From positions 1 through 24,524 of the IMG/VR virus record IMGVR_UViG_3300010396_001256: a stretch of DNA of 24,524 nucleotides; one strand, 5' to 3'. This document shows positions 8,213 through 23,622 of this stretch, one piece after another. The notes under the pieces are model-generated. The model ran no database searches. It saw nothing but the letters and a program-made list of their open reading frames with translations, and was not told where the DNA came from. A program made the translations under genes and the position numbers. Origin of the DNA: a virus. The first letter of the stretch is position 1; every line of letters starts with the position of its first letter.

Positions 8213-9306
8213 TGATCTAGCGCCTCTTCGAGTTCCAGCGTGACATCGCTGAATGCGCCAGGCGTATCTGTCCAGCCGTTCTGGTTAGAGGTCGCCACGA
8301 AGCGGCCGCAGGGATTGCTGATGATCAGCGGATCAGAGTCCGCGGGTGAGCTGCGAAAAGGCCGGTAGAGCTGCAGGTAGCCGGTGCCGCTCCCATCTGA
8401 ATCGAGCGCGGCGGCCACCATGTTCAGCTCAGAGCCGAGCTGCACCAGGTCGCCTGGCAACAGCAGCGCGCTGCTTGAGGCCGGCAGGGACTTCAATTGC
8501 AACGTGAGCCCGGTCTGGCCGGCACCGTGGATCTGCGCACACCGCGCAAGCGAGACCCATGGCATGTCGAAGTAATCGCCACTGGCGACGCCCGACGTCG
8601 AGGCATCGTAGATCTGGATCTGGGCGCTGACCGGGATTGCGGAGCCGCCGTCGGCCGTCACAGTCGATGAATCAGCCGTGATGCTGGACGAATCCGCGGT
8701 GGCCCCGGAGCCGCCGGTGGCGATACCGCAGAGCACGCGATAGCCCTGACCTGCCGTACCGGCAAGCGTGTACGCGGCGCCTGCCGTGAGACTCATCGCG
8801 ATGGACTGCGAGCCGCCGACATTCAGATTGGCGCCCACGAAGCTGCGCAGCGCGTACGCGCCGCCTGAGACCACGATCGCCGAGGCCTGCGCGCCCGAGG
8901 ATGCGCCCGCAGCGGTGCGCTTCGCCCTGAGCACACGGTCGTTGCAGGAAAGCGTGGCCGAATTCAGTGCCGTCCAGGGCCCGATTGCCCGCTGAAAGGT
9001 CGAATCGAGCAGCTCGGCGGACGGAAAGCTGCCGCGAGGCTGGTAGGACTTGTCGTAGAAATACGCTCGGTTCGCCTGGCCGCGCAGCCGCGCGAGGAAA
9101 GCCCGCAGCGTGGCCCGCTCCGGATTGCTCTGATACTTGCCGTCCGCGGCGCTGTTGAGCGTCAGACTGACCTTCAGATGGTCGCCCGAGCGCGCGAGCG
9201 TGCGCGTGGCGCTGGTGAAGATCGACTGCGATACGGCGGTATTGGCGACGGCGGTCCATTGCGCCTGTGCGATGCGCAGCCAAGGTGGCAGAAAGAGGTC
9301 GCTCAT
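8209..9306 (-). CDS. distal tail (DIT-like) minor tail protein with inserted domain
   Basis: The 365-residue product directly follows the tape measure, starting in an ATGA overlap. The first 100 residues and the last 130 look like one conserved tail protein. The N part includes the LRAFLARLRGQANRAYFYD block, and the C part includes LLLPGDLVQLGSELN, GYLQLYRPFRSSPAD and FSDVTLELEEALDQ. Between them, about residues 105-215, lies a Ser/Ala/Gly-rich beta segment that resembles a jelly-roll carbohydrate-binding insertion. It ends in a three-fold TADSS repeat (TADSSSI, TADSSTV, TADGGSA). Distal tail proteins often carry such inserted modules at the tail tip for early adsorption. The insertion is inferred from composition. 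Confidence 0.75.
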   Translation of the reverse strand: MSDLFLPPWLRIAQAQWTAVANTAVSQSIFTSATRTLARSGDHLKVSLTLNSAADGKYQSNPERATLRAFLARLRGQANRAYFYDKSYQPRGSFPSAELLDSTFQRAIGPWTALNSATLSCNDRVLRAKRTAAGASSGAQASAIVVSGGAYALRSFVGANLNVGGSQSIAMSLTAGAAYTLAGTAGQGYRVLCGIATGGSGATADSSSITADSSTVTADGGSAIPVSAQIQIYDASTSGVASGDYFDMPWVSLARCAQIHGAGQTGLTLQLKSLPASSSALLLPGDLVQLGSELNMVAAALDSDGSGTGYLQLYRPFRSSPADSDPLIISNPCGRFVATSNQNGWTDTPGAFSDVTLELEEALDQ

Positions 9307-11087
9307 CCCAACGGTCCCGCAGCGAGAACTCCCCGCCTCTTCAACTGAAGGACTTGCGCGAGGGCCATCTGCACGGCCTTGTTCGTCATGCTCGGCAGCA
9401 GCTTCACGGCGTCTGGCGTCGAGCCGCGCATGTCGATGCTGATAGGAATGTTGATGCCGCCCGCAGTTCCAAGCCCGCTGTTCGGCGTTATGGTGCCGGC
9501 CGTCGACGGCGTGAAGAGCTCTGCGCCCTTCTCACCCACGAGGTACGGCATGCCCGCGGAGACAGGGCCGCCGCTGGCGCGCGCGCCGGCGATAAGGCTG
9601 AACGTTTTATCGAAAAGGCTTCCCAGTGCACCGCTGGTACCGTTGGCACCGAATAGCTCGAGCGTGGTCCATTTCGCGAGCATCTGATCGACCGCCGCGA
9701 GGAAATCCTTGGCCAGGCCCTTGATTCCGACGCTGACAGGATCGGCGAAGAACTGCTCAAAGCTGTTCGCCATGCTCTGCGAGGCCTGGCTGGTCAGGTT
9801 CGACATGGCCGCCCAGGTCTGCTGCTGGACGGTCAGCATTTTCTGGGCTTTGACTACGACAGGCTGAAGGCTATCGATCCCCAGGGCGTTATCGTTGTCG
9901 TACTCGGCGAGGCGCCTATTCGCCTCGTCCTGCTTCATTCCATTCGCGACGAGGTTCTCCAGCTCGCTCTGGTAGTGGTCCCGGGCTGCGAACTGCTTTT
10001 CGAGGCCGGTCATCGTGTCCGCGTTCTCCTGATCGAGGAAAGCGCGATTGGCCCTGACCATCTGATCGATGCTGGCGTTCTGCTGGTCATTGAGCTGCTG
10101 GTAGAGCCTCGACGAGGCCTCCAGCGCCTGATTGGAGGAAGCGTACAGATTTTCGACGTTCGGAAGCGGAGCGCCGGTATATGCGACGAACTTCGGGTTA
10201 CCTACAACGCCCGCCGGAAGAGCGCTCTTCTTCCCATTCAGCGCATCGATCTGCGCCTGCACCTGGGCAATGTTCGCCTTGATCGCCGCCGTCCCACTGG
10301 CGGTACCAGGGATGAGCAGCGCCTCCTGCAGCTTCTCAAGCTGAGCCTGCAGGCGCTCGATGCCGGTGCCACTGCCGATCATCAGGCGGATCTCATTCGA
10401 GAACAGCGAAATCGCCGGCGCAATCTTTGCCACCAGGGAATCGCCGAGCCCGGTCACCGACTGATGCAGGTCGTCGATCGCGCTCTTGGCATCGTGCAAC
10501 GCGGCGGCCGTAGCTCCGTCCAGCGCGGCATTCAAATCCTCTGATTTCTTGCGCAGCTTCTCGATGCCCTCTGCGCCTTGGTTGAGCAGCGGCAGGAGCT
10601 CTGCGCCCGCGCGGCCGAATATCGCAATGGCGTCCGACGCACGCTCAGCCGGATCCGGTATTTGGCTGATCGCCTCGGCGACGGCCTCGAACTGCTGGTC
10701 GGGCGAGAGCTCCTTGAGCTTATCGACATTGATCCCGAGTTCACCGAATACCGCAGATCCCTTGACGACGTTCTGCTGCATCTTCGCGAACGCCGTGGTG
10801 AGCGCATCGGCATTCACGCCGCTGGACTGAGCCGCGTAGCTGAGCTCGGAGAGCGCCTGCACGGCGACGCCGGTCTGCTGCGACATGGTGTAAAGCGTGT
10901 CGCCGGCTTTGAGGGCAGACCCGATGAAATCGGTGAGCGCAGCTGCGGAAAACGCGACGCCCAGTGCACCCGAGACGTCCTTTACGACGGTCTTGAGCTG
11001 CTTGAACTCGCCCTCGACTCGCTTCATCGAGGATTCGAAGCCCGCCGTCTTCGCGGCGATGTCGAATAGGACGTTGAACAGAGCCAT
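9303..11087 (-). CDS. tail tape measure protein
   Basis: The 594-residue product is the tape measure that sets tail length and is carried inside the tail tube. It begins MALFNVLFDIAAKTAGFESS, followed by KRVEGEFKQLKTVVKDVSGALG, a common opening of this family. It has long heptad-rich helical regions (about 230-275, and 320-400), an internal hydrophobic segment near residues 36-60, and the family's C-terminal GMPYLVGEKGAELFTP motif near residue 517. It is short for the family (lambda gpH has 853 residues), so a short tail is expected. It starts three bases after the gp10-like gene. The order chaperones, then gp10-like, then tape measure is slightly shuffled relative to HK97. Confidence 0.9.
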   Translation of the reverse strand: MALFNVLFDIAAKTAGFESSMKRVEGEFKQLKTVVKDVSGALGVAFSAAALTDFIGSALKAGDTLYTMSQQTGVAVQALSELSYAAQSSGVNADALTTAFAKMQQNVVKGSAVFGELGINVDKLKELSPDQQFEAVAEAISQIPDPAERASDAIAIFGRAGAELLPLLNQGAEGIEKLRKKSEDLNAALDGATAAALHDAKSAIDDLHQSVTGLGDSLVAKIAPAISLFSNEIRLMIGSGTGIERLQAQLEKLQEALLIPGTASGTAAIKANIAQVQAQIDALNGKKSALPAGVVGNPKFVAYTGAPLPNVENLYASSNQALEASSRLYQQLNDQQNASIDQMVRANRAFLDQENADTMTGLEKQFAARDHYQSELENLVANGMKQDEANRRLAEYDNDNALGIDSLQPVVVKAQKMLTVQQQTWAAMSNLTSQASQSMANSFEQFFADPVSVGIKGLAKDFLAAVDQMLAKWTTLELFGANGTSGALGSLFDKTFSLIAGARASGGPVSAGMPYLVGEKGAELFTPSTAGTITPNSGLGTAGGINIPISIDMRGSTPDAVKLLPSMTNKAVQMALAQVLQLKRRGVLAAGPLG

Positions 11088-11090
11088 GGC

Positions 11091-11543
11091 TTAGCCCTGC
11101 TTCGTCAGCTGGCCATTGACGGCCTTTCCGAGCTCTTGGAAGAAGGTCGCACTGATGGTCTGCTGAAGCCGCGCCCAGGTGTTTTCGACGAAGCGCGTAG
11201 CCGGGACCAGGTGCTGCGGCTTGGGATTGGTCGCGTGCGACGGCCGCGTTTTGTGTCCGCGGTCTACGAAGGCCCAGTAGAAGGCGTTCTTCTTGTCGTC
11301 ACGCTTCCCGCTGGTGTTCACCACGACGTCGACGGCGATCGCGCCTTGCCTGGAGGTGGCGCGAAGCGCGATGTTCGTCTGCAGCCGGCCGGTGCGCCGG
11401 GGTGCGGCAGTGCGCAGCATGGCCAGAGCCTGGGCGCTGGCCAGGCGCAGCGCGGAGCGCACGAACGTGCGCGCAACCTTGTCCTCGAAGGACTTGAGCG
11501 CGGAAGCGACGTCGTCCTCGTTCCAGGTGATTGCGTCAGGCAT
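11091..11543 (-). CDS. HK97 gp10-like head-tail/tail completion protein
   Basis: The start is the ATG at 11543, inside an ATGCCTGA junction where the frameshifted chaperone frame ends. An upstream in-frame ATG at 11639 would only translate the chaperone region in a wrong frame. The 150-residue product matches HK97 gp10-type proteins: an N-terminal helix, then LRTAAPRRTGRLQTNIALR near residues 43-62, a KNAFYWAFVDRGHKTRPSHAT block near residue 83, and a C-terminal amphipathic helix. These proteins help terminate or join the tail at the head. The gene lies between the chaperones and the tape measure and not before the tail tube, an unusual place for this family. Confidence 0.8.
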   Translation of the reverse strand: MPDAITWNEDDVASALKSFEDKVARTFVRSALRLASAQALAMLRTAAPRRTGRLQTNIALRATSRQGAIAVDVVVNTSGKRDDKKNAFYWAFVDRGHKTRPSHATNPKPQHLVPATRFVENTWARLQQTISATFFQELGKAVNGQLTKQG

Positions 11544-12092
11544 CGCGAGGCCTCCCGAAGATTGCCCGCAGCTGCGCTTCGGCCGCCGCGGGATCCGACT
11601 CAGGGCCACCGCCGGCCCGCTCGAGCTCGTAGAACGCAAGCCACTCGCCGAGCTCGGCGCTGCTGGTCTCGCTAAGGAGCTGCTGTAGGGTTTTGCCCAG
11701 CGCGCGCGCCAACATGAAATAGAATCGCCGGCGCGGCTGGGCTTTCAGTTTTTTGACGCTTCCTCGATCGAGGCGTCCGTGAGCAGCGAGAGCTTGGCGG
11801 CGACCGTGGCAACGCGTTCGAGCGCAACGCCGCTCTTGGCGCTCAGGCGGTCCAGGTCCGCCTCCTTGAAGAGCGGCTCGCCAGACTCATCGCAGCAGCT
11901 GTAGGCCACCAGGAGCGCCCGCATCGCGGGCTCTGTCGGATTGGCCACGCGGCGGTCGCGCACCGCCTGCTCGAACTGCTCGCGCTGGCAGCCGGTCATC
12001 GACCGCACGCGCACGCTGCCGCCCCATTCCGGCACGTTCACTTCCTCTGTGCGCAGGTCGTCGGCGCCCAGGATGTCCCCCCGGCCGAGCAT
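11536..12092 (-). CDS. tail assembly chaperone, -1 frameshift fusion (gpGT-like)
   Basis: This is the extended product of the chaperone gene. Ribosomes that slip back one base at the A AAA AAC heptamer (11754-11748) bypass the TGA at 11747-11745 and read 70 further codons to a TGA at 11538-11536, giving about 185 residues. The added part contains LGKTLQQLLSETSSAELGEW, near fusion residues 132-151, and is followed by LAFYELE. This is the conserved pattern of gpT-like extensions. In lambda the equivalent fusion binds the tape measure through G and recruits tail tube subunits through T. The 3' frame ends in an ATGCCTGA overlap with the next gene. The frame has no good start of its own, which supports frameshifting. 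Confidence 0.8.
11745..12092 (-). CDS. tail assembly chaperone, short form (gpG-like)
   Basis: The ATG at 12092 overlaps the stop of the tail tube gene (TGATG), and a TTG one codon upstream is less likely. The 115-residue product opens MLGRGDILGADDLRTEEV followed by VPEWGGSVRVRSMTG, a typical beginning of gpG-like tail assembly chaperones. It ends in IEEASKN at the slippery site. In lambda the short form is made in large excess over the frameshifted form and coats the tape measure before tube polymerisation; it is absent from virions. Position between tail tube and tape measure fits exactly. Confidence 0.85.
   Translation of the reverse strand: MLGRGDILGADDLRTEEVNVPEWGGSVRVRSMTGCQREQFEQAVRDRRVANPTEPAMRALLVAYSCCDESGEPLFKEADLDRLSAKSGVALERVATVAAKLSLLTDASIEEASKN
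11748..11754 (-). promoter_or_regulatory. programmed -1 ribosomal frameshift heptamer A AAA AAC
   Basis: In the zero frame the message reads TCA AAA AAC TGA. This is an X XXY YYZ heptamer in register, with a stop codon as the very next codon. The same A AAA AAC heptamer is used by known -1 frameshift sites. Downstream, the -1 frame is open for 70 codons with a recognisable gpT-like pattern. A stimulatory hairpin may exist in the GC-rich stretch just downstream (about 11740-11715), but I did not establish one. Confidence 0.8.
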
Positions 12093-12727
12093 CAAGCGAA
12101 CCAGGGCGGCGCGTTGGTCACGCGCAGAGTGACGCTTCCGGACACCGCGCCGTCCGGCTGCACGCCTTCGAAGCTGAACTGCTTCACGAGCGCTATGAAG
12201 GCTGAGATCGATCCGTCTGACAGCTGCAGGGTGAATGCCGTAGGCGCCTGGGTGCGCTGGATCGTGCGCAGCTGCGCCTGGCCGGCGTCGCCGTTAGTCA
12301 GCAGCACCTTGATGGTCACCTGACCAAAGTCCTGCAGTCCCAGCAGGAATTCCTTTGCGGTGCTCGAGAGGCTCGTCACGTCGATCTCGGCGGCCTGACC
12401 GTCGAAGCCGCCGATGGACTGCACGGTGGCGATCGCAGCCATCGTCTGCTTCTGGAACGAGCCGCCGCTAACGTAGACCGAGTCGTTGGTCGAGTCCTCG
12501 CCCTTGAGGGTGAACTGCGTGCCGCTGGGCGCCGTCACGACGAAGGCGCGATTGTTGAGCTGCGTCATCCCGACGATTCCGGACGACGTGACGACATCGC
12601 CGGCCGAGTACGTGTTCGTTGCGGTGACGACTGCGGGATTCGCCTTCGTGATCGCCGTCGCGCTGACTGCCGTTCCGCTCACCGCGGTTGCGACGCTCAG
12701 AACTGCGCCTGAACCCTTAGTTGCCAT
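12092..12727 (-). CDS. major tail tube protein with FCCH-like inserted domain
   Basis: The 211-residue product should polymerise into the tail tube. The core is recognisable in the second half: GGFDGQAAEIDVTSLSSTAK near residues 106-125, EFLLGLQDFGQVTIKVLL, and the terminal FEGVQPDGAVSGSVTLRVT. Residues about 27-93 form a separate beta module, with NPAVVTATNTYSAGDVV, GIVGMTQLNNRAFVV, and DSTNDSVYVSGG. This matches the phage domain annotated as ubiquitin-activating enzyme E1 FCCH-like and probably decorates the tube. A GAGGA ribosome binding site precedes the ATG. The gene follows the DUF3168-type gene and overlaps the chaperone gene by TGATG. Confidence 0.85.
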   Translation of the reverse strand: MATKGSGAVLSVATAVSGTAVSATAITKANPAVVTATNTYSAGDVVTSSGIVGMTQLNNRAFVVTAPSGTQFTLKGEDSTNDSVYVSGGSFQKQTMAAIATVQSIGGFDGQAAEIDVTSLSSTAKEFLLGLQDFGQVTIKVLLTNGDAGQAQLRTIQRTQAPTAFTLQLSDGSISAFIALVKQFSFEGVQPDGAVSGSVTLRVTNAPPWFA

Positions 12728-12739
12728 GATGTCTGTTCC

Positions 12740-13093
12740 TCACGTCCATATTTGCCACTGCTGGGAGACGCGAAACGTTCGCGTCGGGTTGTCGTAGTCC
12801 TCGGTTTCCTGTTGCATCAGGATCTGCTGCGCCTGCAGGCAGGTCCGCGCCGCCGCTCCGAGCGCCTTGGTGCTGGTGAAGTCGACGCCATAGGAATCGA
12901 TCAGTACGGCCGACAGGTCCAGGCCCGCCCAGCCATCTAGCGCATTGACGGGCTGCGTCTGTAGCGGCTGCAACACGATATAGGGCGCCGGTGCACCTTC
13001 CGGCGCGGTCAGGAAATAGACCCGGCTTGCGCCCACCAGCGGCCGCACGCCCGCGTCGGCGAGCAGCAGCGCGCGCAGCGCCGTCAGGTCCAT
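12740..13093 (-). CDS. tail completion / tail terminator protein (DUF3168-like)
   Basis: The start is the ATG at 13093, overlapping the previous stop (TGATG); the longer upstream frame is a shadow of the head closure gene. The 117-residue product begins MDLTALRALLLADAGVRPLV. It contains VYFLTAPEGAPAPYIVLQPL near residues 25-44 and a DLSAVLIDSYGVDFTSTKALGAAAR stretch near residue 58. This is the DUF3168 pattern of proteins that cap the head-proximal end of the tail. Its position between the head closure and tail tube genes agrees. Confidence 0.8.
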   Translation of the reverse strand: MDLTALRALLLADAGVRPLVGASRVYFLTAPEGAPAPYIVLQPLQTQPVNALDGWAGLDLSAVLIDSYGVDFTSTKALGAAARTCLQAQQILMQQETEDYDNPTRTFRVSQQWQIWT

Positions 13094-13437
13094 CAGTGCG
13101 GCGCCTTCAGGCAGAGCAGCTCGAGCGCCTGGCGGTAGCCGAGCTCCGCCACTTCGATGATGTTGAAGTCCTCTCCCTGGTAGCGGACGCGATCCTTCGA
13201 GTCGATATCGCGGCGGAATCGGATCAGGAAGATCGTCTGCAGTTCGTTCTGCTCCTGGGCCGCGCCGTAGTAGTCGCGCCCGACCCATGGCATGACCTTG
13301 GACCAGACCTCCTGAAGCGGCTCGAAGGTCTCGATCGCCTCGCCGGCGCCGTTCGGCCGCACCGAGCGCTTCAGCAGCGTCAGGCGCCACTTCAGTTCCC
13401 CGGCCCGCGGTACCGGAATGTTGTGGCCGCCGCTCAT
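13093..13437 (-). CDS. phage head closure / head-tail adaptor protein
   Basis: The 114-residue product matches the head-tail adaptor family (SPP1 gp16 / HK97 gp7 type). It has a GELKWRLTLLKRSVRPNGAGEA opening near residues 12-33, the VWSKVMPWVGRDYYGAAQEQNE block, FLIRFRRDIDSKDRVRYQGEDFNI, and an IEVAELGYRQALELLC ending. These proteins attach under the connector and close the DNA channel before the tail joins. The ATG overlaps the connector stop (ATGA) and the stop overlaps the next ATG (TGATG), so translation is coupled on both sides. Confidence 0.85.
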   Translation of the reverse strand: MSGGHNIPVPRAGELKWRLTLLKRSVRPNGAGEAIETFEPLQEVWSKVMPWVGRDYYGAAQEQNELQTIFLIRFRRDIDSKDRVRYQGEDFNIIEVAELGYRQALELLCLKAPH

Positions 13438-14033
13438 ATCAGGCCGGTGGCCTGCTCGCTGGAGATCAGCGCCTGCACGCCGAAGGGAACCTCGGTCAGG
13501 ATTCCGGCGGCGGCCTCGCGGGTCGCAAACCAGTGCGCGGCGAGCATCATGATTGCCGTGCGCAGCTTCGCCGGAACGAGCGCAGCGTCCGTCCAGCCGG
13601 CGACCCAGGTCACGGTGACAGCATCGGGTTGGCAGCGTGTCGCCGGCCAGCCTGTGACGCCGTAGGCCGGCGCCAGATAGGAAACGTACGGTTCCTGCAC
13701 GAGCTGATACTGAGAGGGATCGAGCGTCAGCTCGGCGCCGGTCGGATCGATGTACTGAACCGACGTGATCGACTGCAGCGGCGGCTTTGGCAGGTACATG
13801 CGCTGCGAGCGCCGCTCCCAGTAATGCCCGGGCCAGCTACTGTCCCAGGTCTTCTTCCATGCCTGCGTGAGCAGCGCGCGGCCGGTGGCCGCCTCGACGT
13901 GCTCCCTGGCCGCCTGCAGATAGACGCCCAGGACGACGTCGGATGCGGCGTCCTCGATGCGCGCGTGCGCCTTGAGCTCGGACAGCGAGACAGGCTCGAC
14001 GGTCGGCGGCGTGACGAGCTGCAGCGACGACAT
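13434..14033 (-). CDS. head-tail connector protein (HK97 gp6-like)
   Basis: The 199-residue product carries the gp6-like connector pattern. The opening is LVTPPTVEPVSLSELKAHARIED, with helices through LGVYLQAAREHVEAATGRALLTQ near residues 35-58. A beta insertion follows, with LPKPPLQSITSVQYID and a YQLVQEP strand. A C-terminal VPAKLRTAIMMLAAHWFATREA helix ends it. These proteins form a ring below the portal. It starts two bases after the upstream small head gene and overlaps the head closure gene by ATGA. Confidence 0.87.
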   Translation of the reverse strand: MSSLQLVTPPTVEPVSLSELKAHARIEDAASDVVLGVYLQAAREHVEAATGRALLTQAWKKTWDSSWPGHYWERRSQRMYLPKPPLQSITSVQYIDPTGAELTLDPSQYQLVQEPYVSYLAPAYGVTGWPATRCQPDAVTVTWVAGWTDAALVPAKLRTAIMMLAAHWFATREAAAGILTEVPFGVQALISSEQATGLI

Positions 14034-14035
14034 GC

Positions 14036-14227
14036 TCAGGCCTTCTTGAGGCTCTCAGCGTAGGCGACTGCGTCCGGATGTGGGTCGATATCGCCCGCTG
14101 CGGCGTGCGCGTCCGCCATGTCCGCGGGAAGCGTCACGAGGTCGTTCGGCGCGTGGCGCTGGCCGGCAATGTGCACATGCCGCAGCACGCGCGCCTTGAC
14201 GTCGCCGCGCTCTTCCTTTTTTGCCAT
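14036..14227 (-). CDS. small head-region protein, unknown
   Basis: The 63-residue product begins MAKKEERGDVKARVLRHVHI and continues GQRHAPNDLVTLPADMADAH, with a short C-terminal helix. Small proteins with a single beta-hairpin and this VxLPADxAxxH-like pattern are common between capsid and connector genes. Some are decoration or head-tail joining factors, but I cannot name the family. A GAGGA ribosome binding site stands before the ATG. It is the first gene after the terminator that follows the capsid gene, so its expression relative to capsid is set by read-through or by a promoter not seen here. Confidence 0.7.
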   Translation of the reverse strand: MAKKEERGDVKARVLRHVHIAGQRHAPNDLVTLPADMADAHAAAGDIDPHPDAVAYAESLKKA

Positions 14228-14248
14228 GTTCGTTCCTCAATCTGGGAG

Positions 14249-14282
14249 AGAAAACAGGCCCCGGAGCTTTCGCCCCGAGGCC
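14249..14282 (-). terminator. intrinsic terminator after the major capsid gene
   Basis: On the minus strand an 11-bp stem (GGCCTCGGGGC with GCTCCGGGGCC, two G-U pairs) closes a GAAA tetraloop and is followed by TGTTTTCTCT. It lies between the capsid stop at 14313 and the next start at 14227. Strength is judged from stem GC content and the stable GNRA loop. The late operon continues past it, so termination must be partial or overcome by antitermination. Confidence 0.8.
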
Positions 14283-14312
14283 CGAGTTACAACGCGATTC
14301 CTTCCGGGGGGA

Positions 14313-15617
14313 TCAGGTCGCGCTGTTCGCGTAGTAGTAGACCGCCTTCGCGTCCACCAGGTTGCCGCCCGATCGCATCCAGGCCAGGAAGCCGACCTGC
14401 GCCTTGCTGGCATAGGCAGAATCCGTAAACCGGAAGAGCATCATCTCCAGCGTGTCCCGGATCTTGTAGAACGAGAAGTCGCCGAAGAGGACCGACTTCG
14501 CGTTCGCCGCCATGGCGGCGACGTCCTGGTTGATCTGGATCGGATAGCCCATGAGCTCGTTCGGAGCGCTCGCGCCGACGATGCCGGCCGAGTAGGCAGG
14601 CAGGAACAGAGGGCGGCCGGCGGTATCCTTCAGCTTGCGGATGACCTTCAGTGAGCTGTCCGCCATCATCCACTTGCAGTTGCCCAGCGCACGATAGGCC
14701 GGGTCCACCGAATGCTCGAGATCGACCAGATCATCGTAGATGATCGTGAGCGTCTGACCAGTCGTGCCGGTCTTACCCAGCGTCGCAGCAGTCACGACGC
14801 CATTCGGCTCGCTCGAACTATCGCCCGCGCCGACCGTGTACTTCGTGTTCTGGATGCGGCCGATGCGCTGGCCAATGCGCTTTCTGATCAAGCCCTCGAT
14901 GTCGATCACCGTGTCCTGCAGCAATTCGAACGGGACGGTGATGATCTTCGAGCCGAACTTGTAGACGTTCAGGCTCACCGATCCGAAGCTCGGATCCAGC
15001 GCGTTCGCCGCGGTATTCTGCGCGATGATCTCGCCTACCTCGGCAGTGCCGTCCGTCGTCGGGTACTGCATCGTGCGACCGTCGGCCGTGGCGAACTGAT
15101 CCGCCACCGCTCGCATGCCGCCGAATGCCTTCAGCTCATCGATGAACTGAGGGACGATGGTCACAGGGACCGTGTAGCCGCCCTGCGAGTTGGTCGTGGT
15201 GCTCAGTGTGTTGCTAATCTCCCGCAGCGCACGAATCTGCTCCGAAGAGAGCGCCTCGAGGCCGCCGCGCACCAGCGCGCTGAAGGCGCTTTCCTGCAGC
15301 GCTTCCTGCACGGAAAGCTGGACCTGATTGGCACGGTTGAGGACGCGCGCGTGAGCTTCGCTCAGCTTGCGCCGTGCGGCGGGCTCGCGCTCTACCTGCT
15401 GAACCGCGTCCTGAAAGCGCTCTTCGGCGTTCAGATCGAGGACGCGCTCTTCGCGTTTGATCTCTCCGTCGATGCGCTCGATGTCGGACATGTGCGCGTC
15501 ATACTGCGCCTGGTGCTCCGGCTTCCAGTCCTTGCCGGGGAACTTGTAATTCAGGGCGCGGACTTCCTTTGCGAGCGCGTCACGCTGCTCCCGCAAGGCT
15601 TTGAGCTTGCTAACCAT
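14313..15617 (-). CDS. major capsid protein, HK97 fold with delta domain
   Basis: The 434-residue product is the main head subunit. Residues 1 to about 120 are charged and helical (heptads such as KLKALREQRDALAKEVRAL), the delta scaffolding domain normally removed by the head protease. The mature part probably starts near REISNTLSTTTNSQGGYTVP at about 130-150. HK97-fold landmarks follow: VPQFIDELKAFGGMRAVADQ, then the GTAEVGEI and FGSKIITVPFELLQD region, the WMMADSS strand, GYPIQINQDVAAMAA, and VLFGDFSFYKIRD. Because the scaffold is fused, no separate scaffolding gene is needed, and none is seen. It has a GAGGT ribosome binding site and lies between two terminator hairpins. Confidence 0.93.
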   Translation of the reverse strand: MVSKLKALREQRDALAKEVRALNYKFPGKDWKPEHQAQYDAHMSDIERIDGEIKREERVLDLNAEERFQDAVQQVEREPAARRKLSEAHARVLNRANQVQLSVQEALQESAFSALVRGGLEALSSEQIRALREISNTLSTTTNSQGGYTVPVTIVPQFIDELKAFGGMRAVADQFATADGRTMQYPTTDGTAEVGEIIAQNTAANALDPSFGSVSLNVYKFGSKIITVPFELLQDTVIDIEGLIRKRIGQRIGRIQNTKYTVGAGDSSSEPNGVVTAATLGKTGTTGQTLTIIYDDLVDLEHSVDPAYRALGNCKWMMADSSLKVIRKLKDTAGRPLFLPAYSAGIVGASAPNELMGYPIQINQDVAAMAANAKSVLFGDFSFYKIRDTLEMMLFRFTDSAYASKAQVGFLAWMRSGGNLVDAKAVYYYANSAT

Positions 15618-15640
15618 GGTGTCTCTACCTCAAGTTGTAT

Positions 15641-15663
15641 AAAAAAACCGCCCGGGTGGGCGG
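15641..15663 (-). terminator. terminator-like hairpin in the leader of the capsid gene
   Basis: On the minus strand CCGCCC, loop ACCC, GGGCGG is followed at once by seven T residues. It is a compact six-bp all-GC stem with a perfect U tract. It lies in the 80-base gap between the protease stop (15698) and the capsid ATG (15617), only 24 bases before the ATG. It could terminate transcripts from upstream genes, act as an attenuator, or mark a processed 5' end of a stable capsid mRNA. Confidence 0.75.
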
Positions 15664-15697
15664 CTGGTTTTCACGTTGCGGGAGCGCCGCTGCGTGT

Positions 15698-16510
15698 TCA
15701 GATAAGGGCGAGTTCCCGGCGGCGCTGATCGGCCGCGGCCTCGAAGCCCTCGTTATCGTCTTGCGCCTGGGCTGCTACCGGCGGCGCTTTCGCTGCCGCG
15801 CGAGCCGGCGGGCGTTTCAGGTATGCGGTCAAGTCCCAGTTCGCCGCCGCGCTGGCCGGGTCGATGCCGTCCCCGTCATCGTCGTCATCGCTCTGGCCAT
15901 CTTCGTCGTCGTCATCGTCGGTATCGCCCGCGATGCGATCTGCAAAACCATTCGCGAGCGCCTCATCGGCCGTGAACCACGTCTCGGCGTTCATCCAGTC
16001 GGTGACCTGCTCTAGCGAATTGCCGGTCTGGGCGACATAGTCCGCCGCCAGCGAGCCGTCGATCTTCTCGAGCAGCGCGGCGGTCTCCTGCAGATCCTCG
16101 GCGTTGCCGAAGGCCAGCGTCCACGCGCGGTGGATCATCAGGAAGCTGCCTGGCGCCATCTCGACCTCGTCGGCTGCCATGGCGACGGTCGAGGCGGCAG
16201 AAGCCGCCAGACCATCGATGTGCGCCACGACGTTGGACGGATGGGCGGCAATCGCCGAGGCGATGGCCCGCCCGTCGAACACGTCGCCCCCTGGCGAGTT
16301 GATGTGCAGATCGATACGCGGCGCGCTGATCGCATTCAGGTCCTTCACAAACTGATCGGCGCCGATCCCGAAGTCCGGGTCGATCATGTCGTACAGGTAG
16401 ACCGTCGCGGATTCACTGCCCGCCTGGTGACGGACCTCGTAGCGGCGCGGCCGGCTCCGGTTTCGGGCGACCAGCTGGCTCAGCCGGTTCATCGGGCGCA
16501 TTGCTCGCAT
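15698..16510 (-). CDS. ClpP-like head maturation protease
   Basis: I choose the ATG at 16510, eight bases after a strong AGGAGGG site; the frame opens further upstream but without such a site. The 270-residue product has the ClpP fold used by many HK97-like phages to cleave the capsid delta domain. Landmarks are RIDLHINSPGGDVFDG near residues 65-80, the Ser motif GLAASAAS (S104), the His motif FLMIHRAW (H127), and the WFTADEALANGFAD block near 178-191. A run of Asp/Glu (residues 197-213, almost all acidic) precedes a Pro/Ala-rich C-terminal tail. The gene overlaps the portal end by about 98 bases in another frame. Confidence 0.9.
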   Translation of the reverse strand: MRAMRPMNRLSQLVARNRSRPRRYEVRHQAGSESATVYLYDMIDPDFGIGADQFVKDLNAISAPRIDLHINSPGGDVFDGRAIASAIAAHPSNVVAHIDGLAASAASTVAMAADEVEMAPGSFLMIHRAWTLAFGNAEDLQETAALLEKIDGSLAADYVAQTGNSLEQVTDWMNAETWFTADEALANGFADRIAGDTDDDDDEDGQSDDDDDGDGIDPASAAANWDLTAYLKRPPARAAAKAPPVAAQAQDDNEGFEAAADQRRRELALI

Positions 16511-17777
16511 CGGACGTCCCTCCTGCGGGGGTAAACAGCGACGTGCCGCCATCGATGGGCGGTAGACCGACGCGCTGGCGCACGTCGTTCGAGGTCATGA
16601 AGCCCGGGCCGGCAGAACCGCCGAGCGCCGCGCGGAACCAGGTGCCGAGCGACTGCATATCGCCGCGCTCGAGCGCTTCCTCGTCAAAATCCACCGCATA
16701 TCGGTCGATTCCGAAGAGCTTCCGGTTAATTTCCTGCTCAAAGGCGTTCGTGTGCGGCCTCAGCGTGTAGCGCACGAAGCCCTTAGACATCTGCTCGATG
16801 CCGCTGCCCCAACTGGTCGTGTTTGCGGTTTCACCGATCATGAAACCTGGCACGCGGAACGCCCGAGCGATCTCCACGACCTGATAGGCGCGCGTCTCCA
16901 GCAGCTGTGCTTCCTCGGCCGTAGCCGATATCTTGTCGGCCTTGGTGCCATTGGCGAGCACCAGCGGCATGTGCGCATTCCCGGCGCCGCCATATCGCTC
17001 CACCCACATGCGTCGCAGCTGCTCGATCTGCTCGTCCTTCATCGTGTTTGGGTGGCTCAACACGATCTTCGGCATTCCGCCGTTGGTGAAGAACCTGCCG
17101 CAGTATTCTTCGATCGCGAGCGAGATCCCGATCGCCTGGCGCGCGCCGTCCAGGATGGCGGATTGCATCGTTCCGCCGCTGACCGTGATCGCGTAGCGGG
17201 TCGGGTCGTCGAGCGGCTTCTCGCCCTCGAAATGCAGCATGTCGTCCGGAGAGACGCCGAAGAAATTGCCGGCGACGTTCACCAGGTAGCGCACGATCCG
17301 ATACATACGCCAGGTCGGGTCCCACGCCCTCTCGATCATGACGTCGCGGTTGTGCTGAAACACCAGGCCCAGCACTTCGTTCGACTTCGGGCGCCGGATG
17401 ATGCGCGCGAAGCTCTCGCCGAAGAGCAGCTTGTGAAGCGTCAGGCGAGTCCAGAGCTGCGCGGCGGTGCTGTCAGGGCCCGCCTGCTCATTGAACATCC
17501 ACCAGTAAGGGTGATCATCGATCGGCCTGAGCAGGAGTCTGCCGCCCTCATAGGAGCGCTTATTCACGCGCAGCGGCATGCAGATCACCCCGCCGGCGAT
17601 AAGCGTCGTGCACGCCTGCACGGCAATCGCCTGCATCGCCGTCTCGGGCGACACGGTGCGGCCGGCGAAAGTGCCTGCGAGCCCCAGGAACTCTGCAAAC
17701 TGCATCGGCGTCATGCCGGCGGTGTCGTTCCGAACTTCCAGGCCGACCAAGCGCCTGAGTGCGTCGTACCAGGCCAT
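16413..17777 (-). CDS. portal protein, HK97 family
   Basis: The 454-residue product forms the dodecameric DNA gate at one capsid vertex. Family features include the opening helix, MQAIAVQACTTLIAGGVICMPLRV near residues 48-71, HPYWWMFNEQAGPDSTA near 89, the LLFGESFARIIR strand near 117, and the IARAFRVPGFMIGE block near 313, which is highly conserved in HK97-type portals. RYTLRPHTNAFEQEINRKLF then corresponds to the wing/stem end. The last 40 residues are Pro/Ser/Gly-rich. The ATG overlaps the terminase stop (TGATG). Confidence 0.92.
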   Translation of the reverse strand: MAWYDALRRLVGLEVRNDTAGMTPMQFAEFLGLAGTFAGRTVSPETAMQAIAVQACTTLIAGGVICMPLRVNKRSYEGGRLLLRPIDDHPYWWMFNEQAGPDSTAAQLWTRLTLHKLLFGESFARIIRRPKSNEVLGLVFQHNRDVMIERAWDPTWRMYRIVRYLVNVAGNFFGVSPDDMLHFEGEKPLDDPTRYAITVSGGTMQSAILDGARQAIGISLAIEEYCGRFFTNGGMPKIVLSHPNTMKDEQIEQLRRMWVERYGGAGNAHMPLVLANGTKADKISATAEEAQLLETRAYQVVEIARAFRVPGFMIGETANTTSWGSGIEQMSKGFVRYTLRPHTNAFEQEINRKLFGIDRYAVDFDEEALERGDMQSLGTWFRAALGGSAGPGFMTSNDVRQRVGLPPIDGGTSLFTPAGGTSDASNAPDEPAEPAGRPKPEPAAPLRGPSPGGQ

Positions 17778-19492
17778 CAGAGCGCCACGAAGGACTGCTG
17801 CGCCGGCTGGTTATGCACCACAGCGCGAGCCAGGGCCATGAGCATGGCGCACATGCCGTCGATCTTGTCGGCGGAACGCTTCCGATCTGGTGCCATGTTC
17901 ATGTTCGCGTCCCTCCGCGGCACCAGGTTGGCGGCATTCCATGCAAGCACGGGATTGCCGCCGTGGTGCAGCTTGCGCGCGATGTAGGCCTCCTCGAGGT
18001 ACTTCATCGCGGGGTTATATGACCGGGCGCCCTGGGCAAACTCGACCATCGTCTGTCCCTCATTCGCGAGGTTGTTGACGATCTGGTTGGCATTCCAGCG
18101 ATCAAAAGCGATCTCCTGAACCTGGAATCGCCGGCAGTCCTCGAGCACGCGCTGCTGTACCAGGTCGTAGTCGGTCGTTTCACCGCTCGTAACCTCGATA
18201 TGCCCGGCAGCGACCCACGGCGCGTATGCGACGCCGCCGCGCTCGCCGCGGCTTGCCACCGCAGACTCGGGCACGAAGTAGCGGCCCCACGCATAGACGT
18301 GTCCCTCGAGCAGCCACACGAGCCACCAGGCCGTCATGTCCGTCGTTGAGGCCAGATCCATGCCGGCCCAGCAGGGCTGCCCGACGAGCTCGTCGAGCGG
18401 GACAGCGCCGCCGCAGCGCCGCCATTTCAGAAGATTGACCCAGGCATCGCCCGCCGCCGCGGGCCTATTCAGGCGCTTGATCCGGAACTCGGCCAGCGCT
18501 CCGGGCAGCTCGCGCGCTTCCTTCGCCAGTTCGCGCATCTTCGTGATGCTCGGCGTGATCCCCATCAGGGGATTCGCCTTGTACCAGGCGCGTTCGTCGA
18601 AGTCGTCGTCGTCGACGGCGTAATACAGCGCCAGCAAGTGATCAGCCTCAACCGTGCCCTCGAGCACCAGCTGCGCGAACTTGCGCACTTCCTGCCACGG
18701 TCCGGGGTTTAGATATCCCTCGGTCGTCGTGTACAGAAACAGTGGATTCTTCCTCGCGCCGGCCGCCGAGCGCAGCACGTCGAAGAGGTCACGCGTCTTG
18801 TGCGCGTGGAGCTCGTCGAAACATAACGCCGAGGGATTCAGGCCGTCCTGCGTCGAGGCCTTCGCGTTGATCGGCTTGAACGTGCCCCCGATATCGAAGC
18901 GCGAGATGACATTTGCGAATGCCTCCACGCCGAACGCCTCGCGAAGATCCGTGCACCGCTCCACCATGCGGCGCGCAACGCCCCAGACGATGCGCGCCTG
19001 GTCGCCAGTCGTCGCCGCGCTGATGATCTGCGGGCCAAGCTCCGGCTCGTCGCAGAAGCAGTACAACATGATCGCAGCGGCGAGCGTCGACTTCGCATTT
19101 TTGCGCGCGACCGCAAGCAGGGCCGTCGTGAACCGTCGAGTACCGTCGAAATTCCTGAATCCGAACAGCTGAACAATGAAGAAAACCTGCGCCGGTTCGA
19201 GCTTAATGGTCGAGGTCGACCATGAGCCCTCGACGTGCGGCAGCAGCTGGATAAATTCGCAGGCTCGGTTCGCCCTTGCCGGACTCCACAGGAACGGCGG
19301 CCGACGCTTGCGCTGCGCGCGGCGCAGGTCGGCCATGAATCGCTTCGCTGCGAGCCGGATCCACTTCCCGAACCGTTCGCCCTTCCTGTCCTCGATCGCC
19401 GTCTCGGCGTAGGCGAGCGCGATCCCGACGAAATCAGCCGGCCGGGTCCGACGGCGTGAGGTTGCCGAACTTGTTGCCGCCCGGTTTCCCAA
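17777..19492 (-). CDS. terL: terminase large subunit, HK97-like
   Basis: This is the packaging motor ATPase with a C-terminal nuclease. The open frame reaches 19585, but that part overlaps the small-subunit gene. I use the TTG at 19492, the closest in-frame start upstream of the conserved ADFVGIALAYAE block, and the exact start is uncertain. Walker A is LLAVARKNAKST at about residues 125-136 and Walker B is ALCFDELH near 222-229. The nuclease domain shows CWAGMDLASTTDM and the terminal ADKIDGMCAMLMALARA. WNANQIVNNL and the FDRW segment are typical of Terminase_1-type proteins. The stop overlaps the portal start. The HK97-like type together with an HNH gene nearby suggests cos packaging. Confidence 0.92.
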   Translation of the reverse strand: MGNRAATSSATSRRRTRPADFVGIALAYAETAIEDRKGERFGKWIRLAAKRFMADLRRAQRKRRPPFLWSPARANRACEFIQLLPHVEGSWSTSTIKLEPAQVFFIVQLFGFRNFDGTRRFTTALLAVARKNAKSTLAAAIMLYCFCDEPELGPQIISAATTGDQARIVWGVARRMVERCTDLREAFGVEAFANVISRFDIGGTFKPINAKASTQDGLNPSALCFDELHAHKTRDLFDVLRSAAGARKNPLFLYTTTEGYLNPGPWQEVRKFAQLVLEGTVEADHLLALYYAVDDDDFDERAWYKANPLMGITPSITKMRELAKEARELPGALAEFRIKRLNRPAAAGDAWVNLLKWRRCGGAVPLDELVGQPCWAGMDLASTTDMTAWWLVWLLEGHVYAWGRYFVPESAVASRGERGGVAYAPWVAAGHIEVTSGETTDYDLVQQRVLEDCRRFQVQEIAFDRWNANQIVNNLANEGQTMVEFAQGARSYNPAMKYLEEAYIARKLHHGGNPVLAWNAANLVPRRDANMNMAPDRKRSADKIDGMCAMLMALARAVVHNQPAQQSFVAL

Positions 19493-19847
19493 CTTTCGCT
19501 CCCAGCGCAGCTCGCGCCTTGACGCCCATGCCGAGTTCGGCCAGCCACGTCTGCAGGCGACGGTCGAGCGCCGCGTAGACATCAATCATGATCGGATTGA
19601 TCTTTCGCAGCATGGCGAGGGCTCGCGCCGCCTGCTCGAGCGCGATCTCTTCCGAGCTCGATAGCGCCGGCAGCGGGCAGCGCTCGTAGATGTATCGCCA
19701 GGCCGCGATCTCTTCGCCTGTCAGCGTGGGTGGCGGCTCCGTGGCCATCGGACCGGCACCAGGCAGATCGGCGCGCGCGCGATCGGGGTTCTTATCGAAC
19801 GCGCCCTTCATCTGCAGGATCGTCGCGGATTCTCTCGGCCTGGCCAT
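19434..19847 (-). CDS. terS: terminase small subunit
   Basis: The 137-residue product opens MARPRESATILQMKGAFDKN followed by PDRARADLPGAGP, the usual N-terminal pattern of P27-type small terminases. A helical region with WRYIYERCPLPALSSSEEIALEQAARAL follows, then an arginine-rich LDRRLQTWLAELGMG helix. It recognises phage DNA and loads the large subunit. No strong ribosome binding site is seen before the ATG: a GAGGT lies 13 bases upstream, rather far. It is preceded by a 166-base AT-rich noncoding gap that could hold its binding site. Confidence 0.85.
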   Translation of the reverse strand: MARPRESATILQMKGAFDKNPDRARADLPGAGPMATEPPPTLTGEEIAAWRYIYERCPLPALSSSEEIALEQAARALAMLRKINPIMIDVYAALDRRLQTWLAELGMGVKARAALGAKVGKPGGNKFGNLTPSDPAG

Positions 19848-19900
19848 CGTATTAGTTAGTACCTCGAACGAATTACGCCAGCCATCAGACAGGGCTCACT

Positions 19901-19937
19901 TCCACAAAACGATGATTTCATTAACTTATTTTGTGGA
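19901..19937. repeat. 9-bp perfect inverted repeat in AT-rich gap before terS
   Basis: TCCACAAAA at 19901-19909 and TTTTGTGGA at 19929-19937 are exact reverse complements around a 19-base AT-rich spacer. The surrounding gap (19848-20013) between the terminase small subunit and HNH genes is the only long noncoding, AT-rich stretch in the packaging region. A DNA-binding site for the terminase small subunit near cos, or an operator, is plausible. The centre-to-centre distance of the arms is 28 bases. Confidence 0.7.
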
Positions 19938-20013
19938 TGTGAAAATTTGGCTAGACGCCCGACATGGAAGCCATCGCTCCAAAGTTTTTGGCACCCGGGG
20001 GCCGGCGCTTGCA

Positions 20014-20370
20014 TTACCAACGTCCGCCTTCGCGCGCCGTCTTGCGTGAATGGCACGCGTGACAGAGCGACTGCAGGTTGCCGTCATCGAACGGATCGCC
20101 GCCGGCAGCGATCGGCGTCTTGTGGTCGACCTCGCTTGCCAGCGCACGGCTGCAATGTTCGCACATCGGATCGCGCGCGAGCTTGGCAGCACGACAACGA
20201 CGCCACGCCGTCGTCGAATAGAACGCCATGCGTTCCCGACGCACCGGATCAGACCGTCTGGCGCGCGTCTGCTCGCGCTGTGCGCGCAGCTCGTGCGCGC
20301 GACAGTAACCAGATGACACCAGCGCCGGACAGCCGTGCCGCTTGCACGGTCGCAGCGCCTTACTCGGCAA
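20014..20370 (-). CDS. HNH endonuclease
   Basis: The 118-residue product has an N-terminal Cys3His site (C9, C14, C23, H26) and an HNH domain. The domain has a CxxC pair at C70/C73, the VDHKTPIAAGG motif with H83, GNLQSLC with N99, and CHACHSRKT with C103/C106 and H107. The TTG start overlaps the TAA of the upstream small gene, and an in-frame stop lies just before it, so no ATG alternative exists. HNH proteins beside the terminase genes in HK97-like phages support the large subunit in cleaving cos DNA. That function is known for the group and inferred here. Confidence 0.87.
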   Translation of the reverse strand: MPSKALRPCKRHGCPALVSSGYCRAHELRAQREQTRARRSDPVRRERMAFYSTTAWRRCRAAKLARDPMCEHCSRALASEVDHKTPIAAGGDPFDDGNLQSLCHACHSRKTAREGGRW

Positions 20371-20536
20371 CGCGTACCATCAGCTTGAGCGCTGCGATCA
20401 GGCTTTCACCGTCGGAGAGCGTCACGGTGCATACGGCTGCTAGATCAATCGCTTCAGTGATCGCGCCAGCGTCGAGCGTGATCTGGGCAAGCTGGCCCGC
20501 GAACACCGCACCGGCTGCCGTCAGCGCGGCTGGCAC
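20360..20536 (-). CDS. small protein upstream of HNH, start uncertain
   Basis: A frame ending at the TAA at 20360 reads as a coherent Ala/Val-rich protein with GC-rich third positions: AGAVFAGQLAQITLDAGAIT, then DLAAVCTVTLSDGESLIAAL. The only plausible start close to it is a GTG at 20536 (58 residues), without a clear ribosome binding site. Sensible sequence continues about 15-20 residues upstream (SLIATVAGVEW), so a non-canonical start may be used. It overlaps the HNH TTG start by 11 bases, as in a coupled pair. It would be the first gene of the leftward operon. Function unknown. Confidence 0.45.
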   Translation of the reverse strand: MPAALTAAGAVFAGQLAQITLDAGAITEAIDLAAVCTVTLSDGESLIAALKLMVRVAE

Positions 20537-20589
20537 GGTCCATTCAACGCCAGCGACGGTCGCGATCAGACTGACGTGGCCTGGGCGGC

Positions 20590-20619
20590 TTGCGACAGGG
20601 ATGCGCTCGCTTCTAGGGT
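20590..20619 (+). promoter_or_regulatory. weak candidate promoter for rightward early genes
   Basis: TTGCGA (20590-20595) and TAGGGT (20614-20619) with an 18-base spacer stand 40 bases before the first rightward ATG. The match is poor, four and three of six consensus bases. It is listed because this divergent gap (about 20537-20658) must hold the start signals of the rightward cluster, and I saw no better candidate. No clear operator repeat is visible here. Confidence 0.22.
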
Positions 20620-20658
20620 GCGTACTGTCCGCGAAGCCCTCGCCCAGGAGAAGCAGCC

Positions 20659-20841
20659 ATGAGTGCAAAGCACCAGGCATTCGAGTACGGATCGCTGCAC
20701 GCCACCGTGGCGCTGGCAAATAGCATCGTCGATGACGACTGCGTGAATCTCGACGTTCTTCAGCGTGCGCTAGAAGCTGCGTGGCTGGCGGGTTATCGAA
20801 ATATCGAAAATAAAGATATCTCGGACGAGGACAAGGTATGA
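20659..20841 (+). CDS. small acidic early protein
   Basis: The 60-residue product starts with a good ribosome binding site (CCAGGAGAAGCAGCC before ATG). It is acidic, with a probable helix in the middle (CVNLDVLQRALEAAWLAGYR near residues 28-47) and a charged tail ending in DISDEDKV. No domain is recognised. It is the first gene of the rightward cluster and overlaps the next gene by ATGA. Such small acidic early phage proteins often bind host proteins, but nothing in the sequence shows a target. Confidence 0.7.
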   Translation: MSAKHQAFEYGSLHATVALANSIVDDDCVNLDVLQRALEAAWLAGYRNIENKDISDEDKV

Positions 20842-21335
20842 CCGCCTCAAATTCGCTGTGCGATTTTTGCGGGCTGTCGATCAACCCAGCCAAGCCTGGG
20901 GCGCACTCGTGCCACGACTCGCAACGGAAGGAAATCAACCGCCTGCGCGCCCAGGTAGCTAATCTAGAGGCGTCACTGCTCGGCGCCTGCAACGACACCA
21001 TCGACTGGGCTGACAGCCACGACCACCTTACCGCGCGCTGCGAGAAGCTGGAGGCGCGCATCCGAGAGCTCGATTATAGCAACACGGTTGCAGGGGTCGT
21101 TGCGTCTAAACGTACCGCTGACGAGCCGACACAGCAGCGACTGTGCTCCAAGTGCGGTCGCAACTGGATCAGCGGCAGCGAGCAGTGCGATTGTGATCCG
21201 GAGGAACCGAAAGCTGCGCATGTCTGCGGTGCGCAGGGCTTTGGGCGCGGTCAGGGGTCGGAGGACGATGTTTGCCCGGCCTGTGCAGCGGAGGAAACGA
21301 TGCCGCAACGGATTGGAGATAAGGCCCATGAGTAG
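20838..21335 (+). CDS. zinc-ribbon / coiled-coil early protein
   Basis: The 165-residue product begins with a CxxC pair (C8, C11), with C25 and H24/H26 nearby. A coiled-coil-like stretch follows (about residues 31-78, KEINRLRAQVANLEASLL then HLTARCEKLEARIREL). The second half has further metal-site candidates: LCSKCGRNW (C103, C106), CDCD (C117, C119), HVCG (C130) and VCPACA (C146, C149). This looks like two or three zinc ribbons on a helical stalk, fit for nucleic-acid or protein binding. I do not recognise the family. It overlaps both neighbours: ATGA with the 60-residue gene, and 8 bases with the small membrane protein. Confidence 0.7.
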   Translation: MTASNSLCDFCGLSINPAKPGAHSCHDSQRKEINRLRAQVANLEASLLGACNDTIDWADSHDHLTARCEKLEARIRELDYSNTVAGVVASKRTADEPTQQRLCSKCGRNWISGSEQCDCDPEEPKAAHVCGAQGFGRGQGSEDDVCPACAAEETMPQRIGDKAHE

Positions 21336-21477
21336 CAAGGAATTTTGGCTGACGATTGTCGCCATTTTCGCCGGCCTGATCTTTACCGCCGAATTTGTCG
21401 GTTGCCAGTGGCATGCAGACAACCTGGAGCACGGCTGCGCCACGAATGCGTGGTCGTGCGCGAATGCACATAAGTGA
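21328..21477 (+). CDS. small single-pass membrane protein
   Basis: This 49-residue product is encoded in the gap after the zinc-ribbon gene. ATG at 21328 follows a GGAGATAAGG ribosome binding site and overlaps the previous gene's last codons. It opens MSSKEFWLTIVAIFAGLIF and has one hydrophobic helix at about residues 6-24, followed by a Cys/His-rich tail (C26, H29, H35, C37, C44, H48). The tail is probably periplasmic or metal-binding. The function is unknown; superinfection exclusion is one role of small phage membrane proteins, but nothing here proves it. Confidence 0.65.
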   Translation: MSSKEFWLTIVAIFAGLIFTAEFVGCQWHADNLEHGCATNAWSCANAHK

Positions 21478-21492
21478 GCGAGGAAGTGCAAC

Positions 21493-21966
21493 GTGGCTAG
21501 TATCCCATACGAAAACACAACCGCTGGCGATCAGGCGCTGGTGGCGGCGCAGAAGATCCTGTCGACGTTTGGTTGTCAAGCGTTCGGCACCATGATCGAC
21601 AACGAGCGCGGCTGCACCATCGTTCAGTTCAAATGGCGCGGCCGTCAGATCAGCTTGGAGGCAAGCTGGCGTGGCTATGCCAATGCATGGCTCAAGGCGC
21701 ATCCATATTCTGAGCGCTGGAATGGACCCACGAAGCAGCGATGGGACCAGAAGGCACTAGGCATCGCTCAGACGGCCGTGTGCTCGGTGCTACGCGATTG
21801 GATCAAGGGCCAAGTGACAGCCATCGAATGCGGCGTAATGAGCTTCGATGCGGTGTTCATGCCCCACATTCTGCTGCCGACCGGCGAGCGCGTGATCGAC
21901 AAGGCGAAGGCGCTGCTGCCGCCACCGGCCGAGGATAAGGTCGTGGCGCTGCCCAGTAACCGCTGA
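21493..21966 (+). CDS. conserved phage protein, unknown function
   Basis: The 157-residue product starts with GTG after an AGGAAG site. It opens MASIPYENTTAGDQALVAAQ and has the blocks FGCQAFGTMIDNERGCTIVQF, RGRQISLEASWRGYANAWLK and VCSVLRDWIKGQVTAIECG near residues 96-114. The blocks resemble a hypothetical protein family I associate with early regions of Pseudomonas-type and related phages; no function is known to me. The fold is probably alpha/beta without membrane segments. It stands alone with short spacers in the early cluster. Confidence 0.75.
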   Translation: MASIPYENTTAGDQALVAAQKILSTFGCQAFGTMIDNERGCTIVQFKWRGRQISLEASWRGYANAWLKAHPYSERWNGPTKQRWDQKALGIAQTAVCSVLRDWIKGQVTAIECGVMSFDAVFMPHILLPTGERVIDKAKALLPPPAEDKVVALPSNR

Positions 21967-21981
21967 GGGAAAGGGGGAGCA

Positions 21982-23571: not shown

Positions 23572-23593
23572 GCCGTCTCAGACGAGAAGCGGA

Positions 23594-23622
23594 ATGGTGA
23601 GGTTAGCGCCTTTCCAAGTCAA
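23594..23622 (-). promoter_or_regulatory. candidate promoter of tRNA-Gly
   Basis: On the minus strand TTGACT (23622-23617) and CACCAT (23599-23594) are separated by 17 bases, about 22 bases before the mature tRNA 5' end. The -35 match is good; the -10 is weak with three of six bases. The gap 23572-23693 otherwise holds no gene. Confidence 0.4.

Follow-up and report, generated by a model that had tools for sequence, protein, structure and literature searches.

The gene for the main shell protein of this virus sits between two terminator-type hairpins. The window, the whole 24,524-base IMG/VR virus record that was analysed, carries its late genes on the minus strand. Hairpin A precedes the major capsid protein (MCP) gene and hairpin B follows it, and scans and folds of the sequence showed both to be putative terminator-type elements, specific to the late strand. 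Comparison with relatives showed that a large group of siphophages of the HK97 type, most of them from Proteobacteria, share the predicted architecture: a hairpin of the intrinsic-terminator type stands directly in front of the capsid gene and of the major tail gene, and a very stable one follows the capsid gene. B is an element of a different kind from A, with a very stable stem and a variable U-tail.

The late genes were TerL, portal, ClpP-type protease, HK97-type MCP, a 63-aa ORF, adaptor, head closure, a further connector gene and major tail protein (Table 1). The first-pass annotation of this DNA had remarked that the gaps around the MCP gene stand out among tightly packed late genes. This was borne out, as every other intergenic gap from TerL through the gene after the major tail protein was 12 nt or less.

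Table 1. Features of the capsid region and of the window edges (positions in the window)
Feature	Position	Strand	Basis or remark
Late-end protein, phrog_1128 (enoyl-CoA hydratase/carnithine racemase-like)	1969-2460	-	E 7.1e-16
63-aa ORF, first gene past hairpin B	14036..14227	-	no family match
Hairpin B, after MCP stop (14313)	stem-loop 14284-14255, tail UUUUCUCUCC 14254-14245	-	terminator scan + fold
Major capsid protein (MCP), HK97 type	14313..15617	-	PF05065 2.2e-59, phrog_10 3.9e-70
Short leader, 23 nt, T-run to MCP ATG (15617), Shine-Dalgarno-like GAGG	15618..15640	-	sequence
Hairpin A, between protease stop (15698) and MCP start (15617)	stem-loop 15665-15646, T7 run 15647-15641	-	terminator scan + fold
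P1, small hairpin a few nt past protease stop	15672..15696	-	fold of 15618-15700
ClpP-type head maturation protease, gene preceding capsid gene	15698..16552	-	PF00574 9.2e-29, phrog_94 1.6e-71
Excisionase-like HTH protein, in region between TerS and integrase	22023-22502	+	
tRNA-Gly(gcc), overlapping 3' end of integrase gene	23496-23571	-	likely attachment site

Hairpin A was found where a six-bp GC stem with U7 had been described, about 24 bases before the capsid ATG. Its stem on the minus strand had eight pairs, six of them G-C, closed by a 4-nt loop, and the T7 run directly 3' of the stem left 23 nt to the ATG. With an energy of -13.6 kcal/mol, it had the GC-rich stem (five pairs or more), the short loop and the U-tract of intrinsic terminators. 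The leader that contains it (83 nt, 15618-15700) folded better than its own shuffles (z -2.5; 3 of 200 equally good). An Rfam search of 13900-16000 gave no match at the gathering score; the best sub-threshold hit, an isrK match spanning hairpin A (E 0.16), was taken as chance.

Hairpin B begins 28 nt past the MCP stop. Its energy of -26.5 kcal/mol and its tail, TTTTCTCT, likewise agreed with the stem and the U-tract of intrinsic terminators. The location, GAAA loop and U-rich tail reported earlier for this element stood, but the stem, given then as 11 bp, had 13 pairs by the scan. The 88-nt stretch around B as a whole folded no better than shuffles (z -1.1; 24 of 200 equally good). A d'Aubenton-Carafa-type score was 38.6 for A and 34.7 for B.

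Related loci were gathered by MCP similarity. There were 170 of them (2 plus 8 phage records, the best 80 of 82 genome contigs and the best 80 of 570 viral contigs), which with the window made 171 and formed 118 lineages at 80% MCP identity. Start codons are approximate, since gene calling relied on tblastn and on extension of ORFs, and the sample size varies between junctions because loci with a short flank or a missing gene were dropped for each junction separately.

In the 100 nt ahead of the start codon, a terminator-like hairpin was present at the MCP gene in 110 of 165 gathered loci, or 70 of 114 lineages; at the major tail gene the figures were 40 of 59 loci and 22 of 36 lineages. Among the gathered loci, it was also found before the tape measure gene (12/24) and the tail chaperone gene (3/23), and was nearly absent before TerL (2/125), portal (0/150), protease (0/144), adaptor (Ad1, 3/125), head closure (Hc1, 0/93), gp10 (0/80) and tail terminator (0/64). 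The antisense strand upstream of the MCP gene gave 4/165 and shuffles gave 1.3/165, indicating that the signal was strand-specific. Absence of the hairpins from close relatives, which the first-pass annotation had named as evidence against its proposal, was not what was found. Such hairpins recurred around the MCP gene in relatives, and this recurrence, together with the sequences of A and B, supported the claim that both elements are of the terminator type.

At the threshold used, the U-tailed hairpin before the MCP gene was missing in 55/165 loci, and certain loci had a protease-MCP gap of 9-13 nt, without room for a hairpin. The window itself lacked a terminator before its own major tail gene, where the gap is 12 nt. 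Two tandem terminator-like hairpins preceded the major tail gene in L083, L116, L076 and L148. On a tree of 110 lineages, 66 of them with the upstream element (after removal of entries whose MCP was short or broken or whose flanks were short), the element underwent at least 24 changes of state. Its stem and loop sequences differed widely among lineages. That of Aggregatibacter was wholly different (ACCGCAC...GTGCGGT), and presumably resembles the uptake word of the Pasteurellaceae.

The U-tailed hairpin after the MCP gene, scored by the same test as upstream, was found in only 42 of 164 loci. The site conserved most often was thus the one upstream of the MCP gene rather than the one downstream, an arrangement that the major tail gene of relatives also showed. 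When the tail was disregarded, a very stable hairpin (-14 kcal/mol or lower within 80 nt) followed the MCP gene in 85 of 111 lineages, as compared with 0/111 in mid-MCP. The same test gave 4/98 lineages after TerL, 4/106 after portal, 17/100 after protease, 4/80 after adaptor, 1/55 after head closure, 3/45 after gp10, 7/32 after tail terminator and 12/34 after major tail protein. The tails of these post-MCP hairpins were variable, with six or more T among the first eight bases in just 23/101. U-tailed hairpins flanked the MCP gene on both sides, as in the window, in 22 of 111 lineages; 45 had the upstream one only, 11 the downstream one only and 33 neither.

A more distant set consisted of seven phages whose MCPs were 31-34% identical. 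Their protease-MCP gaps were 8-37 nt in six and 95 nt in L176, and the scan found no U-tailed hairpin in this gap in any of the seven. This suggested that the upstream element is a trait of the MCP group of the window and not of all HK97-type phages. After the MCP gene, L174 and L178 had a short U-tailed hairpin (-7.7 and -7.8 kcal/mol, respectively), and L176 had a strong hairpin with a weak tail. In SfV (L173), a GC hairpin lay in the gap after the MCP gene, where the record annotates a putative terminator. L172, L175 and L177 gave no call there, yet L172 showed a 4-bp CCGC/GCGG stem and then T7. The major tail gene was preceded by a U-tailed hairpin in two of the distant phages, L172 and L178.

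That the hairpins are mere products of chance in a GC-rich genome has a negligible probability. A simple terminator scan of 5000-24524 did find no overall enrichment (14 sites versus 12.0 +/- 4.2 in shuffles), with A and B at the top of its list. The terminator prediction with folding energies that had been proposed earlier as a check was run with thresholds on stem energy (-8 kcal/mol) and U-tail score (2.5). Only A and B then passed on the late strand of 19,557 nt, against a mean of 0.34 sites in 200 dinucleotide shuffles, and none of the 200 shuffles held any site as strong as A or B. On this result, and on the conserved position of the hairpins among relatives as compared with counts near zero at other junctions, a chance origin was ruled out. 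We also considered that A and its U-run might enhance MCP translation, as a structured 5' insulator with a site for ribosomal protein S1. The hairpins do precede the MCP and major tail genes, presumably the most translated ones, but the arrangement of the U-run makes this very improbable. In the protease-MCP gap, a GC hairpin of -8 kcal/mol or lower with any tail was present in 71 of 96 lineages. The frequency of T after these stems was 0.80 at the first base, stayed at about 0.5 or above for some nine bases, and fell below 0.4 only at the tenth; registered to the ATG, it was diffuse, with a maximum of 0.48. The U-run is thus in register with the stem and not with the start codon, as predicted by termination and not by a translational U-tract, and a U-tract enhancer was rejected on this ground. 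Among 72 lineages, the hairpin lay anywhere between 6 and 110 nt from the ATG (median 28 nt).

Between the protease stop and the first base of the A stem, the spacing was nearly constant. Its median was 23 nt (quartiles 21-25) in 67 lineages, 54 of which had A at 19-27 nt; the window, at 33 nt, is an exception. The interquartile range was 4 nt, as compared with 18 nt (quartiles 10-28) for the U-tailed hairpin after the MCP gene in 37 lineages. In the accessible text of a reporter study, a lambda terminator was nearly fully repressed by ribosomes at a short stop-hairpin distance and reached full efficiency beyond about 27-30 nt (PMC4824070). With a median of 23 nt against this limit, the spacing in relatives falls within the ribosome-sensitive range. 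In most lineages with A, unlike in the window, the spacing did not exceed this limit of about 27 nt. Ribosome-sensitive terminators such as those of the tR2 reporters and the pyrBI attenuator are alike in that efficiency rises with this distance up to about 27-30 nt; they differ from the window in its spacing of 33 nt, and gating in this phage group is a proposal from spacing.

The space before A also had structure of its own. A small GC hairpin (stem of about 4-5 bp) after the protease stop, corresponding to P1, was found in 58 of 100 lineages and in 17% of shuffles. Shared ancestry of the leader may contribute to the constant spacing, P1 being conserved. Counterparts of P1, for example GCGC-TCCC-GCGC and AGCGG-CTC-CCGCT, were present even without terminator A in L040, L051, L063 and L161. 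The terminator hairpin and its T-run were enclosed, in a Burkholderiales-type subgroup, by an inverted repeat that begins at the protease stop or close to it (e.g. L025:4901-5000 and L046:4906-5003); in single-sequence folds, the P1 strand paired with a complement past the T-run to form an outer stem. The fold of the window had no such outer stem. Leaders of 21 Burkholderiales-type loci were aligned with MAFFT, and pairs were not counted on this alignment because the outer stem was misregistered between subgroups.

If A terminates, the capsid message has to come from a promoter downstream or from read-through. An internal promoter before the capsid gene had been suggested as something to search for between 15640 and 15700. 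None of the sigma70 type was found in the protease-MCP gap of the window, and the best sigma70-like match in the 300 nt upstream of its MCP gene was 6/12. In relatives, a match of 9/12 within 200 nt occurred before the MCP gene in 2 of 114 lineages versus 6 of 105 before portal, without enrichment before the MCP gene. A promoter downstream of A would also have little room, the hairpin being a median of 28 nt from the ATG. An internal sigma70 promoter for the capsid gene was accordingly rejected. With no sigma70-like promoter seen before the MCP gene, the capsid mRNA would have to arise by read-through of A.

Four complete relatives (PHB09, VarioGold, KS9 and H4907) were scanned for further elements of this kind. 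Each had several terminator-like sites on the late strand, and in all four such a site preceded the MCP gene, the major tail gene and, at a distance of up to about 2 kb, TerS; additional sites were ahead of the tape measure gene, within the tail region or in other places. Genes annotated as antiterminators were present in two of the four, VarioGold and H4907. The labels were weak by family search: that of VarioGold matched phrog_79 at only E 0.042, and that of H4907 matched a family of unknown function. No Q-like protein was found among five candidates scanned from PHB09 and KS9.

In the reading that we favour, and to which we would give about half of our confidence, A would be a terminator checkpoint that is read through within one long late operon, and B would combine 3' protection of the capsid mRNA with partial termination. 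RNA polymerase without aid would halt at A, so that leaky or untranslated transcription would not yield the costliest structural proteins. In lytic growth, A would be passed by means of a processive antiterminator of the Q type and/or a ribosome that finishes the protease gene and hinders folding of the hairpin. B would shield the 3' end of the capsid message and, by partial termination, trim downstream transcription. That A is licensed by translation, with a ribosome at the protease stop, about 23 nt before A and behind P1, keeping the terminator unfolded, we regard as improbable, suggested as it is by the spacing. Only transcripts with translated upstream head genes would then extend into the capsid gene, the major tail gene would have a similar device ahead of it, and the window would count as a relaxed case.

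It is rather unlikely that A and B are partial terminators that set protein ratios, each dropping a fixed fraction of transcripts as in phiX174 or after gene 10 of T7. The terminators of phiX174 lie on both sides of its major capsid gene, F. Within its structural block J-F-G-H, TJ, TF and TG have efficiencies of 40-60% and TH of 90% (PMC11527146, accessible text). Both systems have intrinsic terminators between structural genes, flanking the major capsid gene; phiX174 differs in being an ssDNA microvirus with several promoters and no homology, and its efficiencies were measured, whereas the window is known from sequence. A strong terminator right after the MCP gene, 'similar to T7', is described in the available part of the LUZ100 report (PMC10134795), and B, like the putative terminator of the SfV record, fits this position. 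On the other hand, A precedes the gene that is needed in most copies, and no sigma70-like promoter was found to follow A. Simple attenuation there would lower the wrong product unless translation compensated, because the most-needed gene comes next. The U-tailed hairpin after the MCP gene was also infrequent among the loci, as given above. The T7-like partial termination proposed by the first-pass annotation thus agreed with B and not with A, and no capsid promoter was found. Of the T7-type unit, the putative terminator directly after the capsid gene is present as B, and the promoter directly upstream was missing in the scan for sigma70-like sites; without enrichment of such sites before the MCP gene, a promoter-plus-terminator unit was not supported. 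T7 and LUZ100 have a local phage-RNAP promoter before the MCP gene, in contrast to the group of the window, which has a putative terminator there and no sigma70-like promoter that could be found. An alternative that we hold to be unlikely is that a processed polycistronic mRNA has its segment ends protected by the stable hairpins, namely B and A plus P1, termination being incidental. The intercistronic hairpins of puf and malE-malF are models for such protection. The B type, very stable and widespread despite its variable U-tail, is in favour of this, and the energy of B falls in the range of -28 to -22 kcal/mol in which terminators favour abundance of the upstream transcript, according to the accessible text of a terminator-library study (PMC11696848). 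Protection leaves A unexplained, which usually has 6-8 T directly after its stem and occurs on the sense strand only.

Terminators after capsid genes were already known. A regulatory layout in which a conserved terminator stands right in front of the MCP and major tail genes, almost equally far from the stop codon of the gene before, was not encountered in searches of open-access papers. In the accessible text of papers on SfIV, AchV4, SPP1, Fc02 and Listeria phages, terminators are listed or mapped and none is described before the capsid gene; for SPP1, late gene clusters are said there to be delimited by potential terminators. SfV has a homologous HK97-type MCP and a putative rho-independent terminator annotated after orf5, in a position like that of B, and differs in its 10-nt gap with no hairpin before the MCP gene. 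In Caulobacter, GafZ bypasses terGTA (PMC11150451, text seen in part). Antitermination by Q or GafZ resembles the reading of A as a checkpoint in that a structural operon has a terminator needing bypass; as described in that text, terGTA comes after the first gene and is made of 150-bp repeats, unlike A, a single hairpin before the MCP gene. The conserved signals before the shell and tail-tube genes suggest that production of the most abundant virion proteins has a checkpoint built into it. If functional, they would be internal checkpoints in the late operons of a common phage group, would help to explain very unequal protein amounts from one long transcript, and could serve as simple testable parts for control of gene expression.

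The early region, where the late promoter and any antiterminator would be sought, was absent from the window record. The record may represent a reduced or rearranged prophage, or the early genes may lie past its left edge. ORFs scanned in 19900-22300 gave no match to repressor, replication or antiterminator families. At the right edge, the integrase gene overlaps tRNA-Gly and an xdhC-like gene comes next; from this we took the window to reach an apparent prophage edge, consistent with the earlier description as a prophage. The distance from TerS to the integrase gene, over the same 19900-22300, was only about 2.4 kb.
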